Of a stretch of DNA of 20,473 bases, positions 1 through 20,441 are shown piece after piece. Location of the stretch: IMG/VR virus record IMGVR_UViG_3300046320_000191, positions 1-20,473 of that record; one strand, given 5' to 3'. This DNA comes from a virus. The notes under the pieces are model-generated. The model did not search any database, was not told the DNA's origin, and worked only from the letters and a program-made list of their open reading frames with translations. Each line of letters begins with the position of its first letter. The first letter of the stretch is position 1. A program made the position numbers and the translations under genes.

Positions 1-171
1 CGGGTTGAGAGAGTACGTCACCGCCTTTTTCGCCCCGTCCCACTTGGCTAGTAAAACGCCGGTGGCGACAACGTCGCTTAGGCCGTCTAGGTTAACCTGA
101 AAGTTTATGGAGGCCTGATCGGCCTCGCCGTCGCGTCCAAGAAGTATTTTTTTTAATGCGTCGAAGCTCAT
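1..171 (-). CDS. Start of an unrecognised gene, cut by the window edge
   Basis: An open frame of 57 codons starts with ATG at 171 and runs off the left edge without a stop. The start overlaps the stop of the receiver-domain gene as ATGA, and a GGGAGAG stretch lies a few bases upstream, so start choice is well supported. The visible protein begins MSFDALKKILLGRDGEAD and continues with alternating hydrophobic and polar residues suggesting beta strands. I do not recognise the family. Its tight coupling to the receiver domain gene means the two are made together, which makes this gene a candidate partner or simply the next late gene. Function is unknown. Confidence 0.75.
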   Translation of the reverse strand, partial: MSFDALKKILLGRDGEADQASINFQVNLDGLSDVVATGVLLAKWDGAKKAVTYSLNP

Positions 172-602
172 TTTTTCTCTCCCGTGTACTTGCCGTACAT
201 ATTTAGAGTAGACTTTATCTGGTCGATAATTTCTTTAGACTTGGTAGGCTTGGAAATCATTAAGTCGAACGTCATGTCCGCGTGGCGCTCCTTAACCTCC
301 TGGTCGTATGCCGAAAACAAAACTAGAAGAGCCGGTTTGGTTTTGCCCGCGTCGGCCACCTTTTTTATCATCGCGCGAACGAGCGAGACGCCGTCCATGC
401 CGGGCATCTGGTAGTCAGAAATAATCACGTTAATACTTTTTGAATAATCCGTTTTGTCCAGGCATAGCTGGGGGTCGTTGTACGAGATAAGATTCGCCGT
501 CGGGAAGTGGGCCTTAAAAGCCCTAGCGAGCCCTTCGGTTAAAAGCGCCTCGTCGTCGCAGTGAATAATTGTAACCGCTTCAATGCTACTTATAGTCGCC
601 AT
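168..602 (-). CDS. Stand-alone CheY-like response regulator receiver domain
   Basis: This 144-residue protein is a complete receiver (REC) domain with no output domain. The acidic pair D16-D17 sits in IIHCDDE, the phospho-acceptor is D63 in IISDYQMPGMDG, the conserved Ser/Thr position is S97 in LLVLFSAY, and the conserved lysine is K118 in the SKP motif. All residues needed for Mg2+ binding and aspartyl phosphorylation are therefore present. The ATG start overlaps the previous stop as TAATG and is preceded by AGGAGG. In bacteria such domains receive phosphate from histidine kinases. With no DNA-binding or enzymatic domain, this one could act by protein contact or as a phosphate sink; that is inference. 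No kinase is visible in the window. A REC gene in a phage late operon is unusual. Domain assignment is firm, role unknown. Confidence 0.9.
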   Translation of the reverse strand: MATISSIEAVTIIHCDDEALLTEGLARAFKAHFPTANLISYNDPQLCLDKTDYSKSINVIISDYQMPGMDGVSLVRAMIKKVADAGKTKPALLVLFSAYDQEVKERHADMTFDLMISKPTKSKEIIDQIKSTLNMYGKYTGEKK

Positions 603-961
603 TAGTCCTCCTCGGTTTCGCGTTCGATTTTAACTAAAATTCCTTGAATCATTCCCGAGGACTTCGAGATTTTTTCGGTGAGCACGTCGAGCTTTTGAAA
701 GCAGGTCTGCTGCGACCGCTCAAGCAGCGTTACGCTTTTATTAGCGTCCGCCGTGTCCCTCCTGGTGTGGGAGAACTCGCCCTCCAAGCGGTTTAGCTGC
801 GCTTTCAGCTCGCCCGTCGCCTTCACGGCTTCCTCAAGCTCTTTCTCGAAACGGTGGAACTCCCGCTTGACTAGCGCCCACAGCAAAGCCGCCGCCGCGG
901 CGATTAGGCCGGTGCCGCTCAAAATGGACTCTAACGGTATTTTCGACTCACCTGGTGTCAT
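602..961 (-). CDS. Small membrane protein with long coiled coil, possible lysis-associated
   Basis: The 119-residue product has one hydrophobic segment at about residues 13-31 (a run of Ala and Leu ending LLWALV), followed by KREFHR and a charged helical region at about 32-100 with heptad-like spacing. The positive-inside rule suggests N-terminus out and C-terminus in the cytoplasm, opposite to a classical inner-membrane spanin. The layout of N-terminal membrane helix plus coiled coil recalls the Mu-like DUF2730 family and some holin-like proteins, but I cannot assign it. The ATG at 961 follows AGAGGAG at good spacing. Its stop overlaps the start of the receiver-domain gene by one base, so the two are coupled. 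It lies after the tail fibre, where lysis genes often sit. Confidence 0.75.
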   Translation of the reverse strand: MTPGESKIPLESILSGTGLIAAAAALLWALVKREFHRFEKELEEAVKATGELKAQLNRLEGEFSHTRRDTADANKSVTLLERSQQTCFQKLDVLTEKISKSSGMIQGILVKIERETEED

Positions 962-992: not shown

Positions 993-1295
993 TTACGCTG
1001 GTTGGTCCCCGGAGCCGGCCTCCTCCGCGCCGGCCTCCGCCTTTGGCTGTATAACGGGCGGGGGCGAGTAGGGCTTGACGGGCTGGCCGGGGTCCACCTT
1101 AAAGTCTTTAAAAAGATTTTGAATGCTAGCGACCGTGGCGGCGCTTAGCCCCTCCTTAAATGATAGGGTTAGGGCCTCGGGAGTTGTGCAGGAGAACAGG
1201 TAGTGCTCATACGCCGCGCGAACCTCCCTCTCAAACGCGTATACGTCGATTTTAAAAGGCTTCCACTTCAGCTCAATATCGAATTTTTCTGACAC
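993..1295 (-). CDS. Hypothetical small protein next to the tail fibre gene
   Basis: A 100-residue product starts at GTG 1295, with AGGGGAAG about nine bases upstream overlapping the end of the fibre gene. The first 65 residues look folded, with mixed strands and a helix rich in Tyr, Phe and Glu. The last 30 or so are Pro, Ala, Glu and Gly rich and probably disordered. I do not recognise the family. A gene of this size directly after a tail fibre is often a fibre assembly chaperone, and that is the main guess from position alone. The gap to the next gene is 31 bp and contains only its ribosome binding site. Confidence 0.65.
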   Translation of the reverse strand: MSEKFDIELKWKPFKIDVYAFEREVRAAYEHYLFSCTTPEALTLSFKEGLSAATVASIQNLFKDFKVDPGQPVKPYSPPPVIQPKAEAGAEEAGSGDQPA

Positions 1296-1308: not shown

Positions 1309-3240
1309 TTACGTTTTGATAATGTAGTTTACGGCGATATTAGCGGGCCGGGTTTCCGACCCGGTGCGTGGCGCACCGCTAGGGCCATCATTCGCGGGTG
1401 TGCTTGTTGAGCCGCTGAACGCGTGGGAGTGGTCAGCCGAAAATCCGCCGCTATTCTGAGGCGCGGCCCACCCCTGGGTGCCGGCAACAAAAGTCGTCCC
1501 CGGTAGGCCGTAGGCGTTTGTACTCCCCGTGTAGGCGCCGTGGCTAATATAGTGGGAGTGGTTAACGGATTGGCCGCCGGTGTTACCGCCGTAGGTGTGT
1601 ATATGCCCTTGCGCCTGGTCGCTCTGGGAGGCCCCACGCGTGGCCGAGTAGCTAATACTATTTATGCTCTGGGTTCCCGCCCCCCGCAGAAATACGCCCT
1701 GGGTGTTCGGCAGGTTGAATGTGTTCACGCCATCCCCCGCGCCGTGGGTCACGCCGATTACTGCAAAAAGGGCGCTATAGGTGAGCCTAGATACGGCCGA
1801 GCCGTCGGCCATCAGCCACCCCGCCGGGGCGGTGGCCCCTCCGAACGGGGCTATTAGGCCCGTCGGGTTTAGGGCCGCAGCGACCGCCGCCACCAGGTTT
1901 GCCAGGGTGACCGTGTCGCTTGCGATCTGCGCTCCGGTTACGCTAGCGGGAATTAACTTTGTGCCGGGCACCGAGGCGTCCCCAATTTGGGTTCCGGTTA
2001 CGGTGGCCGGGGCTAACTTTGTGCCGGGCACCGAGGCGTCCCCGATTTGGGTTCCGGTTACGCTAGCAGGAATTAACTTTGTACCGGCGATCGAGGAGTC
2101 TGGAACGCGGGTAATTAAAAGCCGTAGGGTCGTGGCTGATAGGGCCGTGCCCACGCCAACCACGCCCAGCGTTGAGCCCGTGGGCTGGGTGGCTGTTATC
2201 CCCCCCGGCGTCGCTGGGTCAAGGTAGTAGGCCGCCCCGGCGGTCAGGCCGGTAAACCCCGCCACGGTCCCCTCCGTAACAACATAGGCGGTGGCCCCGG
2301 TTGAAACCGACGCGGCCGACGTCGCAACGCAGCCCAGCACTTGGCTTCTGAGCGCCTGGTTTGTGGCCCCCGCGTCGGCCGGGTAAACCGCGCCTACCGT
2401 TCTTCCAGACCCGGCAAGGGCCGTGTAAACAAACTGCCTGTTGGTTAGGCCCTGCCCGGCCGGAAGCGAGGCGGACGAAAGGAACCCGGGGCCGTCAAGC
2501 GTTCGCACTTCGGTGTCCCGAAGGTATGCCTGCCCGGACGTTGCACCAATCGCGCAGGCGCCGCCGGAGGCCCTAGCAATAACTATCGTAGCCGGCCCTG
2601 GAACGAGGGCCGAGACGTCGCACGACTGCACCGTAATTGCGGGCGTGCCATAAAATGAAACCTGGGCGGCGCCGGATGCCGTAGCGCCCGCGCTTAGAGT
2701 TACGGTCTGTCCGCTGACCGCGATCACGGTGGCCCCAGCCGGAATACCCGGCCCAAAAACGTACTCTCCTACGTCGATGCCAATCTCGTAATTCATTTTG
2801 ATCTGCGGCGACCCTAGAACGGTTGTGGCCAGGGCCGAGAACGGAATATTCGCCGAGATATAGGCAACGGACGTCTCCCCTAGAACCACGCTTCCCGCCG
2901 CGAACGTATTAGCCGTGTCCAGAATACCGGGCACGCTAAGCCCGCCGGCCGCGCTCCAGCTTAGAGTTCCGGTGGATGCGTTCCAGGACCAGTCCCCACC
3001 GCCTAGTAGCCGAACGGAGGGTAGCAGGGTGAGGAGCGAGGCCTCGCTACTAACTTGCTCATCGAGGTACTGCACCCACTGGTCCGTTAACCACCACATA
3101 TAGTTCATGTGCTGATAGGCCGGGGGCTGCCCGGCCGTCCAACCGCTGGCCTGTAGCGCGGCCGACGGCTGCGCGATCTGCGTCGGTAGGGCGTCTGGGG
3201 TCCACCCCAGGTAGGTGGTCGGCTTTGTATTTAGCGGCAT
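1309..3240 (-). CDS. Tail fibre protein with phage collar domain
   Basis: The 643-residue protein has the layout of a receptor-binding tail fibre. Residues 1-65, with LGWTPDALPTQIAQPS and a Trp-rich stretch ending WVQYLDEQ, resemble the conserved baseplate-attaching N-terminus of many fibres. Residues 145-198 look like a beta module also present in baseplate J. Residues near 390-445 contain a 20-residue repeat with GTKL and VTGTQIGDAS. Residues 461-515 match the phage tail collar domain (GLIAPFGG, GWLMADGS, FNLPNTQGVFLRG). The tip has three HxH motifs (GHIH, NHSH, DHSH); in T4 gp37 such motifs bind iron in a trimeric needle. The ATG at 3240 follows GGAG at eight bases. It is the last large tail gene of the cluster, as expected for a host-recognition protein. 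Confidence 0.87.
   Translation of the reverse strand: MPLNTKPTTYLGWTPDALPTQIAQPSAALQASGWTAGQPPAYQHMNYMWWLTDQWVQYLDEQVSSEASLLTLLPSVRLLGGGDWSWNASTGTLSWSAAGGLSVPGILDTANTFAAGSVVLGETSVAYISANIPFSALATTVLGSPQIKMNYEIGIDVGEYVFGPGIPAGATVIAVSGQTVTLSAGATASGAAQVSFYGTPAITVQSCDVSALVPGPATIVIARASGGACAIGATSGQAYLRDTEVRTLDGPGFLSSASLPAGQGLTNRQFVYTALAGSGRTVGAVYPADAGATNQALRSQVLGCVATSAASVSTGATAYVVTEGTVAGFTGLTAGAAYYLDPATPGGITATQPTGSTLGVVGVGTALSATTLRLLITRVPDSSIAGTKLIPASVTGTQIGDASVPGTKLAPATVTGTQIGDASVPGTKLIPASVTGAQIASDTVTLANLVAAVAAALNPTGLIAPFGGATAPAGWLMADGSAVSRLTYSALFAVIGVTHGAGDGVNTFNLPNTQGVFLRGAGTQSINSISYSATRGASQSDQAQGHIHTYGGNTGGQSVNHSHYISHGAYTGSTNAYGLPGTTFVAGTQGWAAPQNSGGFSADHSHAFSGSTSTPANDGPSGAPRTGSETRPANIAVNYIIKT
1921..2100 (-). 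repeat. Three tandem 60-bp repeats inside the tail fibre gene
   Basis: Three consecutive 60-bp units (1921-1980, 1981-2040, 2041-2100) are nearly identical. Each has a GGGTTCCGGTTACG-like stretch (GCTCCGGTTACG in the first unit), then AACTTTGT, then an ACCGAGGCGTC or related end. They encode the 20-residue fibre repeat with GTKL and VTGTQIG. The unit keeps the reading frame, so copy number could change without breaking the gene. They are coding repeats, not a CRISPR array: units abut without spacers. Confidence 0.95.
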
Positions 3241-6047: not shown

Positions 6048-6704
6048 TTAGCTTCCAATGGTTCCTCTGTAGTCGACCACACCGCCTGAGACGGTGCATG
6101 AAAAAATAATCCCCAGCGAGCGCCGTGAAAAGTCGGGGGCAAAGCTATACGCGTCGAGCGTAAGGACCCCCGGCGTGCCTAAAATTGTGGCGATCAGCAT
6201 CGCGTCGATCGACTTCTGGTCCGGGTTTTTAACCAGGATCTGGCCAAACCAATCGATGCCCGCCGAGGTGTCCATAAACCACTCGCCGTAAAACGTGCTT
6301 ATTCGCTGGATAATATCTTGCAGAATAGCGCCGGGGCCTGGGGCGGGCACCTCTAGGTCCACGGTGGACGTTAGAAGGAGGTCACCCGGGGCGGACGAGA
6401 ACTGGGCAAGAGTTAGATTTGACGAGACGGCGGCGCTGACCGGGTACAGAGGGTTGACCGCCCCGATAGCGAGTGAAGACCCGGCCAGGGTCGCGGAGAA
6501 TGGGCTACCCCCCGGGGCGCCTGTTACCGCGGCCCCAAGCGCCGTAAGAATTACCGCGTTTCCGGCGGCTGCGTTCGCCGAGGTCTGGTAGGCGACCCCG
6601 TTTAAAATAAGAGTGAAGGCTTGCACGCCGGTCAGGCCCGCGGCGACGTTTACAATATAAGTGTTTATCGTTGCGTTAGTTGTGTTCAGTCGTAGGTCAC
6701 TCAT
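6048..6704 (-). CDS. gp25-like baseplate wedge / sheath initiator with extra N-terminal module
   Basis: Residues 108-218 of this 218-residue protein match the gp25-like family: ILQDIIQRISTFYGEWFMD with GEWF at 140-143, AGIDWFGQILVKNP, then TPGVLTLDAY and a final strand-rich part. In T4 and simple myophages this protein joins the wedge and nucleates the sheath. Simple family members are roughly 110-150 residues; here the N-terminus carries about 80 additional residues (about 18-98), Ala and Gly rich with alternating strands, similar in style to the inserts in baseplate J. The ATG at 6704 overlaps the previous stop as ATGA. The next gene, baseplate J, starts 11 bp downstream, the usual partner order. 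Confidence 0.85.
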   Translation of the reverse strand: MSDLRLNTTNATINTYIVNVAAGLTGVQAFTLILNGVAYQTSANAAAGNAVILTALGAAVTGAPGGSPFSATLAGSSLAIGAVNPLYPVSAAVSSNLTLAQFSSAPGDLLLTSTVDLEVPAPGPGAILQDIIQRISTFYGEWFMDTSAGIDWFGQILVKNPDQKSIDAMLIATILGTPGVLTLDAYSFAPDFSRRSLGIIFSCTVSGGVVDYRGTIGS

Positions 6705-7168
6705 GGCAGCACCTGCGTGGTTACGGTTATTGTTGGGGCGACGCCGCCCAGGGAGGGGAGCGCGAAGCTCGGGACGGCGGGCATGGACGGCAGGGCCGGG
6801 AAGGTAATAGACGGCAATCCTAGGCTCGGAAGTGGGAGAGCCGGGGTCGGGATTGCCGGGAAGGCTAAGGACGGCCCACGGAGCGATATAGAGGGCTTAG
6901 AGGGCATAGACGGCAGGGCCGGGAAGGAAACGGAGGGCAGGCCCAGGCTTGGGAGCGGGAGGGCCGGGATCGGGATTGCCGGAAGTGCTAACGAAACACC
7001 AAAGCCCGAGAACGTGGGCGCCGAGGGCATAGCCGGAATGGCCGGAAAGCTTAAGGACGGTAGGCCTAGGCTTGGAAGGGGAAGCGCCGGGATCGGGATT
7101 GCGGTTGAGGTTTTAAAGATAACCCTATCCCCCACCTTTCCGGTTGTAGTCGTCAGTAGGCTACTCAC
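6701..7168 (-). CDS. Proline-rich protein of three 41-residue repeats, baseplate cluster
   Basis: The 155-residue product starts at GTG 7168, overlapping the previous stop as GTGA. After a 22-residue leader with GKVGDRVIFKTS, residues 23-63, 64-104 and 105-145 are three 41-residue repeats, each beginning AIPxPALPLPSLGLPS and continuing with FPA(I/L)P(A/S)MP; a ten-residue Thr and Val rich tail follows. About a quarter of the repeat residues are proline, placed at the same positions in each copy. The repeats hold only one Lys and one Arg and no acidic residue. This suggests an extended rod or fibre-like polyproline structure, not a globular enzyme. It sits between spike and gp25-like genes, where other phages may encode spike-tip or plug proteins; a baseplate role is inference. 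I recognise no family. Confidence 0.8.
   Translation of the reverse strand: MSSLLTTTTGKVGDRVIFKTSTAIPIPALPLPSLGLPSLSFPAIPAMPSAPTFSGFGVSLALPAIPIPALPLPSLGLPSVSFPALPSMPSKPSISLRGPSLAFPAIPTPALPLPSLGLPSITFPALPSMPAVPSFALPSLGGVAPTITVTTQVLP
6734..7102 (-). repeat. Three tandem 123-bp repeats encoding the 41-residue proline-rich units
   Basis: The units occupy 6980-7102, 6857-6979 and 6734-6856 (first to last in reading direction). The first half of each unit is best conserved, with the plus-strand string GGGATTGC followed by the reverse complement of the PALPLPSLGLPS codons. The second half has diverged, so the duplications are not very recent. The spacing is exactly 41 codons in both steps. Confidence 0.9.
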
Positions 7169-19424: not shown

Positions 19425-20441
19425 CTAGTCCCGAGAGCCCCAGCCGCCAACGGAGAACCCGGTGTACTGACCGGACATTATCTTGCCCCACTCGGCGGCG
19501 TCGTGAACCTTCACGGCAATCACCCATGAGCCCTTTTTAATTTTTTCTTTCCCGAGCGGGCCGTCGCTCTCGAAGTCATCGGGGGCTACGTAAGATTCCA
19601 CGGTCGACGCCGCTATCGGTTCGGCGTGCGAGGATCCGATTACGCGGGAATTCGCTAGAAAGTCGTGGGCCGTTTTTTCAATTTCATCGGCGGTCATCGT
19701 GTCGCTATGCTCGTCAACCTCATCCGGCACCAAGACGGCGCCCTTCACGATCTGCTGCATGGCATCGACCTTAAAAATTATAGCGTCGCGCTCGGGGGCG
19801 GACTTAGAAACCGAGGCCTCGGGTGGGCGGCCGCCCGGCCGAGCCCGCGGCCTAGAGCTAGAGCCGCGCGCGGCCATAGCGAGCTTCCCCTCGTGAACCT
19901 GGCTTATATGGTGAAACGCGCGGTCCTCGTGGTGCTGCGCTACCGCCTCCTTCGCCGCTTTTTCGTGGGGCTGGGCGTTCCTTGCGGCCTCTACGGCCTC
20001 CACGCCCTGCTTCTGGTGGTAGTCAAATGCGGCCTTGTGGTCATCGACGTAGCCTTGGGTTCCCTTCGGGTGCGAACTTTCAGTCTGGTCCTTGGAGCTT
20101 GCCCCGCCGCCGGGCTGCGGGCCGCTTCCGGGACCGCCCTTTTTAATCTTAACCGACGTCAGCTTATCGATGTGGGCCTTCGCGGCGGCGCGGGTAGAAA
20201 ACGTGGTGTGGTAAAGGCCGCCGTCCGGCTTCGTAATGTGGTGCTCCTCGGTGTGGGGGGTCGAGTCGACTACGGTCTTACCCGTGTCGGTCGTTCGCGT
20301 GTACGAGCCGCCGGTTCTTTCCACGGTGTGGCCCTTATACCCCTCGCTCCTAGGCTCGCTAGGCTTGGCCTCCGCGGACCCGCCGCCCTTCCGCGGGCCG
20401 GACCCGGGGCCGCCTTTTAAAATAGCCGCTTTGGCAATCAC
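19425..20441 (-). CDS. XkdF-like prohead protease with GGPGSGP modules, 5' end uncertain
   Basis: The frame gives 338 residues from GTG 20441, but it stays open to the window edge at 20473, so the true start may lie outside. Residues 10-16 and 102-108 are two copies of GGPGSGP, each followed by a Gly-rich linker. Between them lies a small domain (GYKGHTVERTGGSYTRTT, then EEHHITKPDGG). Residues about 115-180 are a His-rich helical region (AVAQHHEDRAFHHISQVHEG). Residues about 213-338 are XkdF-like: AVLVPDEVDEHSDTMTADEI, VIGSSHAEP (H272), VESY (E282, S283) and GQYTGFSVGGWG (S331). H272 with E282, S283 or S331 are candidate catalytic residues. It would cleave scaffold or capsid during maturation. 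The next gene is the scaffold. Confidence 0.78.
   Translation of the reverse strand: MIAKAAILKGGPGSGPRKGGGSAEAKPSEPRSEGYKGHTVERTGGSYTRTTDTGKTVVDSTPHTEEHHITKPDGGLYHTTFSTRAAAKAHIDKLTSVKIKKGGPGSGPQPGGGASSKDQTESSHPKGTQGYVDDHKAAFDYHQKQGVEAVEAARNAQPHEKAAKEAVAQHHEDRAFHHISQVHEGKLAMAARGSSSRPRARPGGRPPEASVSKSAPERDAIIFKVDAMQQIVKGAVLVPDEVDEHSDTMTADEIEKTAHDFLANSRVIGSSHAEPIAASTVESYVAPDDFESDGPLGKEKIKKGSWVIAVKVHDAAEWGKIMSGQYTGFSVGGWGSRD

Follow-up and report, generated by a model that had tools for sequence, protein, structure and literature searches.

Background

How the time of lysis is tuned to the condition of the host is a long-standing question; among the known inputs to lysis time are membrane potential and superinfection (T4, N4). 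In phage N4, a protein with one transmembrane (TM) segment and a long helix is a pinholin by experiment, lysis is modulated by a 2-TM protein next to it, and superinfection delays lysis (PMC12642591). Receiver (REC) domains that act on a membrane protein have been described in bacteria, for example in an exopolysaccharide regulator (PMC12802240) and in PorX, which is reported to bind PorL (PMC5005315). Receiver genes in Alteromonas phages have been read in three ways: G48 of phage R8W as a PhoB for low phosphate (PMC8228385), and the CheY-like genes of phages V22 (CDS-30) and A5 (gp11) as a class II auxiliary metabolic gene (PMC7289586) or as part of a shared host-recognition module whose neighbours are without known function (PMC10579305). 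In the literature that we searched, the coverage of which is incomplete, no paper links such genes to lysis and no experiments on any of these phage receivers were found. Here we describe a stand-alone REC gene that is coupled to a gene for a membrane-anchored coiled-coil protein (TM-CC), and show that this pair, which is not previously linked to lysis in the literature searched, recurs in phages.

The receiver gene in the window

The DNA that was analysed (the window) is the whole of the IMG/VR virus record IMGVR_UViG_3300046320_000191, 20,473 bases, and all of its called genes are on the minus strand. Genes for a capsid, a sheath, a tape measure, a baseplate J and a collar fibre protein are recognisable in it by profile searches. 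Compared to diverse INPHARED phages, the capsid protein is up to 38% and the sheath protein mostly 30-40% identical, and no relative was confirmed in IMG/VR when the window hub and capsid proteins were used as probes. Two other proteins of the window have unusual repeats: a 155-aa protein amid the tail genes (6701-7168) has a repeated Pro/Leu-rich motif, roughly PIPALPLPSLGLPSxxFPAxPSMP, and a predicted protein upstream of the capsid genes (19425-20441) has two KGGPGSGP motifs, one near the N-terminus and one internal. The features around the REC gene are given in Table 1.

Table 1. Position and strand of the receiver gene and of its neighbours in the window
Feature	Position	Strand	Evidence or remark
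Tail collar fibre gene	1309..3240	-	upstream of the REC pair
Gene for a 100-aa protein	993..1295	-	between tail fibre and TM-CC genes; possibly tail-fibre assembly
TM-CC partner gene, 119 aa	602..961	-	one transmembrane helix and a long coiled coil
AGGAGG ribosome-binding site of the REC gene	607..612	-	within the final codons of TM-CC
Stand-alone REC (CheY-like) gene, 144 aa	168..602	-	ATG start, Pfam, AlphaFold2, Foldseek, residues
Gene after REC, 5' part	1..171	-	overlaps REC by ATGA; truncated at the contig end

An earlier note, made from the sequence alone, had claimed that the window encodes a complete receiver, without an output domain, inside a phage late operon. The product of the REC gene matched Pfam PF00072 Response_reg with an E-value of 1.2e-9 and 38.8 bits against a cut-off of 30.2 bits, and residues 12-129 of its 144 residues cover profile positions 1-110 of 111, that is, the whole domain. 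Response_reg was the sole Pfam family matched and no output domain was found in the protein. When AlphaFold2 was run with 24 viral RECs in the alignment, the predicted fold (pLDDT 89, pTM 0.83) had five alternating strands and helices, (beta-alpha)5, with a short alpha-4, and the 50 best Foldseek matches listed from the PDB were response-regulator or receiver structures throughout, CheY (2che) among them at 1.1e-6. Residues D16, D17, D63, S97, K118 and P119 can be read directly in the protein; S97 is one column off the usual Ser/Thr in the alignment and is taken as equivalent because of the 'SA' motif that closes strand 4. Thus, profile search and structure prediction both gave a receiver, and the claim of a complete domain with its acid pair, phospho-acceptor, Ser and Lys in place is borne out, as is that of a missing output domain. 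The window REC is intact and probably phosphorylatable, and its layout, a receiver without an output domain, is that of a single-domain response regulator.

The coupling of the gene on both sides was likewise verified: TAATG forms the junction with the TM-CC gene, in the 3' end of which the AGGAGG is found, and ATGA forms the junction with the next gene. The claim of a phage late operon held with one correction: head and tail genes are present, but no lysis genes can be seen in the window. The contig ends 167 bases past the REC gene, the partial gene there had no convincing family match in profile searches, and no endolysin, holin or spanin was found within the 20,473 bases, where the visible genes are head, tail and TM-CC genes. 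The lysis context that we propose for the window is therefore taken from its relatives; its own lysis genes would lie past the end of the contig.

Recurrence of the pair in virus genomes

Close relatives of the window REC were found neither in INPHARED (tblastn, E 0.01) nor in IMG/VR (peptide patterns). The relatives described here were found by scanning IMG/VR for DNA encoding DxxMPxMDG, with G or D/E/N/K at a variable place, and the loci whose REC neighbourhoods were read, in IMG/VR contigs and some cultured phages, are denoted by L-numbers. At least ten lineages of REC were found to contain a stand-alone gene that adjoins a TM-CC gene. The two genes are directly adjacent in the window, in the cultured phages R9Y1, H4/4, V22 and A5, and in L025, L042, L004, L128, L144, L158, L114, L182, L189, L177, L153 and L031, and the junctions of the 13 pairs that were measured range from -23 to +5 bp, mostly with overlapping start and stop codons. 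In the partners of L042, L153 and L031 the coil precedes the TM segment, and in L015 a 2-TM protein without a coiled coil is at the partner's place.

Where lysis genes are visible, the pair is usually among them. The order in L158 is 2-TM protein, TM-CC, REC and Rz-like spanin (1.5e-5); in L182 it is TM-CC, REC, endolysin (Hydrolase_2, 6.5e-18) and Rz-like spanin (4.8e-11); and in L144 it is 3-TM protein, TM-CC, REC, small TM genes and M15 endolysin (1e-20). An endolysin (3.5e-35) is near the pair in L177. In L007 the REC gene is directly before an Amidase_2 endolysin (1.9e-10) and the TM-CC gene is about 300 bp upstream, and in L042 REC is followed by the coil-first partner, a 2-TM gene, a lipoprotein-like gene and later a collar fibre gene. 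In L128 the pair is amid tail genes and no lysis gene was seen nearby. The expectation in the earlier note that receivers do not occur among phage structural and lysis genes is not supported by these loci; they recur there and some had already been annotated, as PhoB, CheY-like or hybrid kinase (PMC8228385, PMC7289586, PMC10579305).

When adjacency was tested on 65 dereplicated stand-alone viral RECs with home-made rules for TM segments and coiled coils, 11 of the 65 had an immediate TM-CC neighbour on the same strand. Of 660 other genes in these loci with a similar length, 27 had one (odds ratio 4.8, Fisher p 2e-4). The figure is indicative, since the rules are home-made, the 11 include the window, one of them (L009) looks false, and many of the 65 are probably in bacterial or prophage-flanking DNA.

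Several other matches were set aside. REC matches in host-like contexts (L059, L065, L075, L021-L023 and others) were excluded from the set of pairs, and INPHARED REC records from faecal contigs, from 'Listeria phage LM' contigs and from Acinetobacter MD-2021a were not used, these being unannotated or complete host-type regulators that may be bacterial DNA. In Stenotrophomonas phage vB_SmaS_Bhz63 (OR797046; L173 2992-4538), a PhoP-like regulator and a downstream gene annotated as PRK11100-superfamily are beside DNA-metabolism genes; here the two-component genes of a phage are arranged differently, in the manner of a moron. A further arrangement was seen in L114, a 139.6 kb IMG/VR contig, where a REC gene, a TM and coiled-coil gene and then a gene for a histidine-kinase-like protein (HATPase_c 5e-16) follow each other (474-2783); this single virus contig apparently encodes a complete two-component set.

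Cultured phages that carry the pair

The Alteromonas phages R9Y1-3, H4/4 and R8W were found by tblastn in INPHARED starting from L158; V22 was found through a structure match in BFVD and led to A5. These belong to different phage groups, V22 being a myovirus, H4/4 and R8W Autographiviridae, and A5 a member of the Schitoviridae and a relative of N4. R9Y1 has genes for a tail fibre, TM-CC, REC and a lysozyme (Glyco_hydro_108, 5e-24) in this order, with ATGA-type overlaps, and in H4/4 the order is tail, holin (3.3e-14), one-TM gene, REC, two-TM gene and terminases. In V22 a tail fibre, a chaperone and a papain-like amidase gene are followed by TM-CC, REC, an Rz-like spanin (7e-6) and a 2-TM gene, and in A5 a tail fibre and a chaperone gene are followed by TM-CC, REC, an Rz-like spanin (2.9e-8), a 2-TM gene and an annotated endolysin. 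The N-terminal hydrophobic stretch in V22 and A5 is weak, below the TM threshold, and the label TM-CC is given there by layout. V22, A5 and H4/4 are like the window in having a stand-alone REC after a TM-CC-type gene in the late region; the window REC and the RECs of the R9Y1 and H4/4 type are not close sequence relatives.

The search for phage REC genes after tail fibre genes, proposed in the earlier note, was thus positive for R9Y1, V22 and A5. That the pair follows the tail fibre block in these three phages and in the window is what would be expected if the REC gene were inherited with that block, as published for V22, A5 and P24, and acted in adsorption or injection, as virion cargo or as a passenger auxiliary metabolic gene. 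The assignment to a shared host-recognition module (PMC10579305) and the pair amid tail genes in L128 agree with this. However, the pair occurs with holin-, spanin- or endolysin-like genes in H4/4, L158, L144, L153, L042 and L007, and even in V22 and A5 the next genes are those for an Rz-like spanin and a 2-TM protein, with the endolysin in addition in A5. We consider a role in the tail or in host recognition quite unlikely.

The homologue of the 'PhoB' in H4/4, a relative of R8W, is gp44 of NC_047834 (L171 5992-6453), a protein of 153 aa. Both gp44 and G48 of R8W are annotated as 'DNA-binding response regulator' or PhoB. Since gp44 has a REC domain only, the low-phosphate PhoB reading looks unsupported.

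The membrane-anchored coiled-coil partner

The earlier note made no remark on the TM-CC gene, the key neighbour of REC. In its product, the transmembrane helix is short and rich in Ala and Gly (about residues 16-33), and a long coiled coil follows it. One TM helix followed by a long helix is a layout like that of holins or pinholins, or of spanins, and the TM-CC proteins of most lineages have it in common without clear sequence homology. Coiled coils match each other cheaply and often give weak profile matches. The window protein weakly matched PHROG families for a lipoprotein (1.1e-4) and for an Rz-like spanin (phrog_739, 8e-4), the latter no better than its Pfam matches to unrelated coiled-coil families, and the TM-CC proteins of two relatives had weak matches to holin families (2e-4 and 1.4e-3). 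When TM-CC proteins were compared with N4 gp63 by phmmer, with about a dozen sequences as the database, the E-value was 0.02 and the match covered the coiled-coil part only. N4 gp63 was kept as an analogy, and the window protein is not classed with the class III pinholins. A phospho-accepting His in the coil was also considered; a His is visible in several coils at inconsistent positions, and the idea was dropped.

What several partners do share is a short C-terminal segment, just before the REC gene, that is common to R9Y1, H4/4, L189, V22 and L177. Its variants are RLTELTMHLLNQ (R9Y1), RLDDLMLHLMNQ, RFDTLMFQLMDQ and NLMELTMQL (V22), and this segment is a candidate REC-docking peptide.

The two halves of the pair are joined in L002, where a single protein consists of an N-terminal TM segment, a coiled coil, a PAS and a REC domain (Pfam PAS_3 2e-12, Response_reg 6e-14). 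Its AlphaFold2 model, made without an alignment, has a pLDDT of 42. PAS and REC domains are expected in the cytoplasm, and because the coiled coil is fused to them the arrangement implies that it faces the cytoplasm, at least in this phage. The gene for the fusion adjoins a gene for a holin-like protein of 174 aa and one for a protein of 190 aa that is lysin-like by eye and whose profile match is solely to an unnamed PHROG family.

The fusion bears on the question whether the TM-CC protein could instead be an inner-membrane spanin (Rz) with a periplasmic coil, to which REC is adjacent merely because both are in the lysis block. Such a role would fit the weak PHROG matches (1e-3 to 1e-2) to Rz-like spanins that TM-CC proteins have, that of the window among them. 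Yet L158, L182, V22 and A5 carry a separate, better-matching Rz-like gene in addition to TM-CC, L002 places the TM-CC part on PAS and REC domains expected to be cytoplasmic, and the coil before the TM segment in the partners of L042, L153 and L031 is unlike Rz. That the partner is a spanin is thus very unlikely.

Conservation and origin of the receivers

The acid pair, the phospho-Asp and the Lys are kept in 18 of 18 aligned RECs of such pairs, which argues for their phosphorylation rather than for dead scaffolds. Pairwise dN/dS indicates that both genes are under purifying selection in relatives; between L128 and L146, for example, it was 0.044/0.68 for REC and 0.077/0.74 for TM-CC. All eleven virus records that were checked, some of them fragments, had exactly one REC and no HATPase_c kinase; control genomes were positive for the two families in 12/14 and 14/14 cases, and L114, with its kinase gene nearby, is outside the eleven.

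In the REC tree, the RECs that belong to such pairs are scattered, with nine label changes, at least three of which are forced by well-supported branches. One clade contains R9Y1, H4/4, L025, L158, L177, L182 and L189, and the window REC is alone on a very long branch. A single common origin of these RECs was rejected, as at least three origins are forced in the tree. From this scatter it is probable that the arrangement has arisen repeatedly and has also spread horizontally to some extent.

The G+C content of the window REC gene, 47.8% compared to 58.9% overall, is the lowest among the window genes and hints at a later acquisition. With the abundance of RECs in bacteria, this could also suggest an ordinary bacterial gene taken up as a moron, or contamination, with no defined function in the phage. 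Against this stand the translational coupling on both sides, the same strand as the phage genes, the presence of no second REC in the record, the recurrence of the arrangement in other phages and the purifying selection in relatives, and we regard it as highly improbable. A bacterial island misjoined to phage sequence, which the earlier note had named as the finding that would overturn its claim, is not what we see at this coupled gene.

A proposed role in the control of lysis

Our main reading, to which we give a probability of roughly 0.55, is that REC and TM-CC form a phage lysis-control module in which the phosphorylated REC acts on the membrane partner and shifts the timing of lysis. Single-domain response regulators act by protein contact, and the window REC would be such a regulator, paired with the product of the gene just upstream, the membrane-anchored coiled-coil protein. 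D63 would be phosphorylated by histidine kinases of the host or by acetyl phosphate, the kinase being that of the host. The cytoplasmic REC would then bind or release the coiled coil of its partner, a membrane protein resembling a holin, antiholin or pinholin, this partner would control or form the lysis pore, and the moment of lysis would thereby be shifted according to host physiology. That REC controls its partner and that the partner controls or forms the pore is suggested by the constant membrane partner, the late position and the repeated lysis neighbours. What the sequences show is the gene arrangement; that the coiled coil is on the cytoplasmic side, that REC binds it and is phosphorylated in the cell, and that the timing of lysis is affected, we infer.

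A different role for the phosphorylation site would be in host takeover, with REC soaking up phosphoryl groups from a host kinase or mimicking its partner, TM-CC merely tethering it near kinases, and lysis not directly affected. An intact phospho-site with no output domain would suit this role, as would the finding that none of the records checked has a phage kinase, and other phage proteins, such as PIT4, are reported to act on two-component systems of the host (PMC10714779). What speaks against it is that the gene is in the late operon and not among early takeover genes, that REC is repeatedly linked to lysis genes and to a TM-CC partner in unrelated phages, and that L002 has the fusion. Host takeover is in our view unlikely. 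The earlier note had offered two guesses, a phosphate sink or the timing of lysis. The latter is favoured by the position of related pairs in lysis cassettes; the former has no specific support and leaves the constant membrane partner and the fusion unexplained. Lysis timing is the better of the two.

A broader proposal, which we put forward tentatively and at somewhat less than even odds, is that unrelated tailed phages have repeatedly recruited a bacterial REC as a phosphorylation-gated part of their lysis machinery, docked on a membrane-anchored coiled coil, reading the two-component or acetyl-phosphate state of the host and thereby fixing when lysis occurs, without DNA binding or a phage kinase. 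If lysis is controlled in this way, such a switch within the lysis cassette, worked by phosphorylation, would add a new input to lysis time and would be a new class of lysis control, and the published PhoB/low-phosphate, auxiliary metabolic and host-recognition readings would be corrected. The cultured carriers, Alteromonas phages R9Y1-3, H4/4, R8W, V22 and A5, make the switch directly testable.

Comparison with known systems

The cREC of jumbo phages (PMC7824862) is also a phage-encoded receiver fold; unlike the REC described here it is divergent and is linked to NAD/ADP-ribose enzymes and not to membrane/coiled-coil or lysis genes. No operon of such enzymes was found at the window REC, the neighbours of which are tail and TM-CC genes. 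The exopolysaccharide regulator (PMC12802240) and PorX are receivers reported to act by contact with a membrane partner, as would be expected for the phage REC, whereas they are bacterial and outside phages and lysis, and PorX has a further output domain. The N4 pair of gp62 and gp63, a lysis regulator and a class III pinholin, is alike in having a small one-TM protein with a long helix, and the topology of the L042 partner is like that of gp63. In N4 this helix is predicted to be cytoplasmic, the genes are in a lysis cassette and lysis is regulated, as is proposed for the REC pair. It differs in that the N4 cassette is described without a REC gene; the 'Receiver domain' of that paper is a region of gp63 and not a REC fold (PMC12642591). 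N4 may thus serve as a precedent for a regulated, single-TM, helical pinholin, by analogy and not by membership. In the window, as in V22, A5, R9Y1 and H4/4, the TM-CC gene is directly before the REC gene, in a late operon and after the tail fibre gene.
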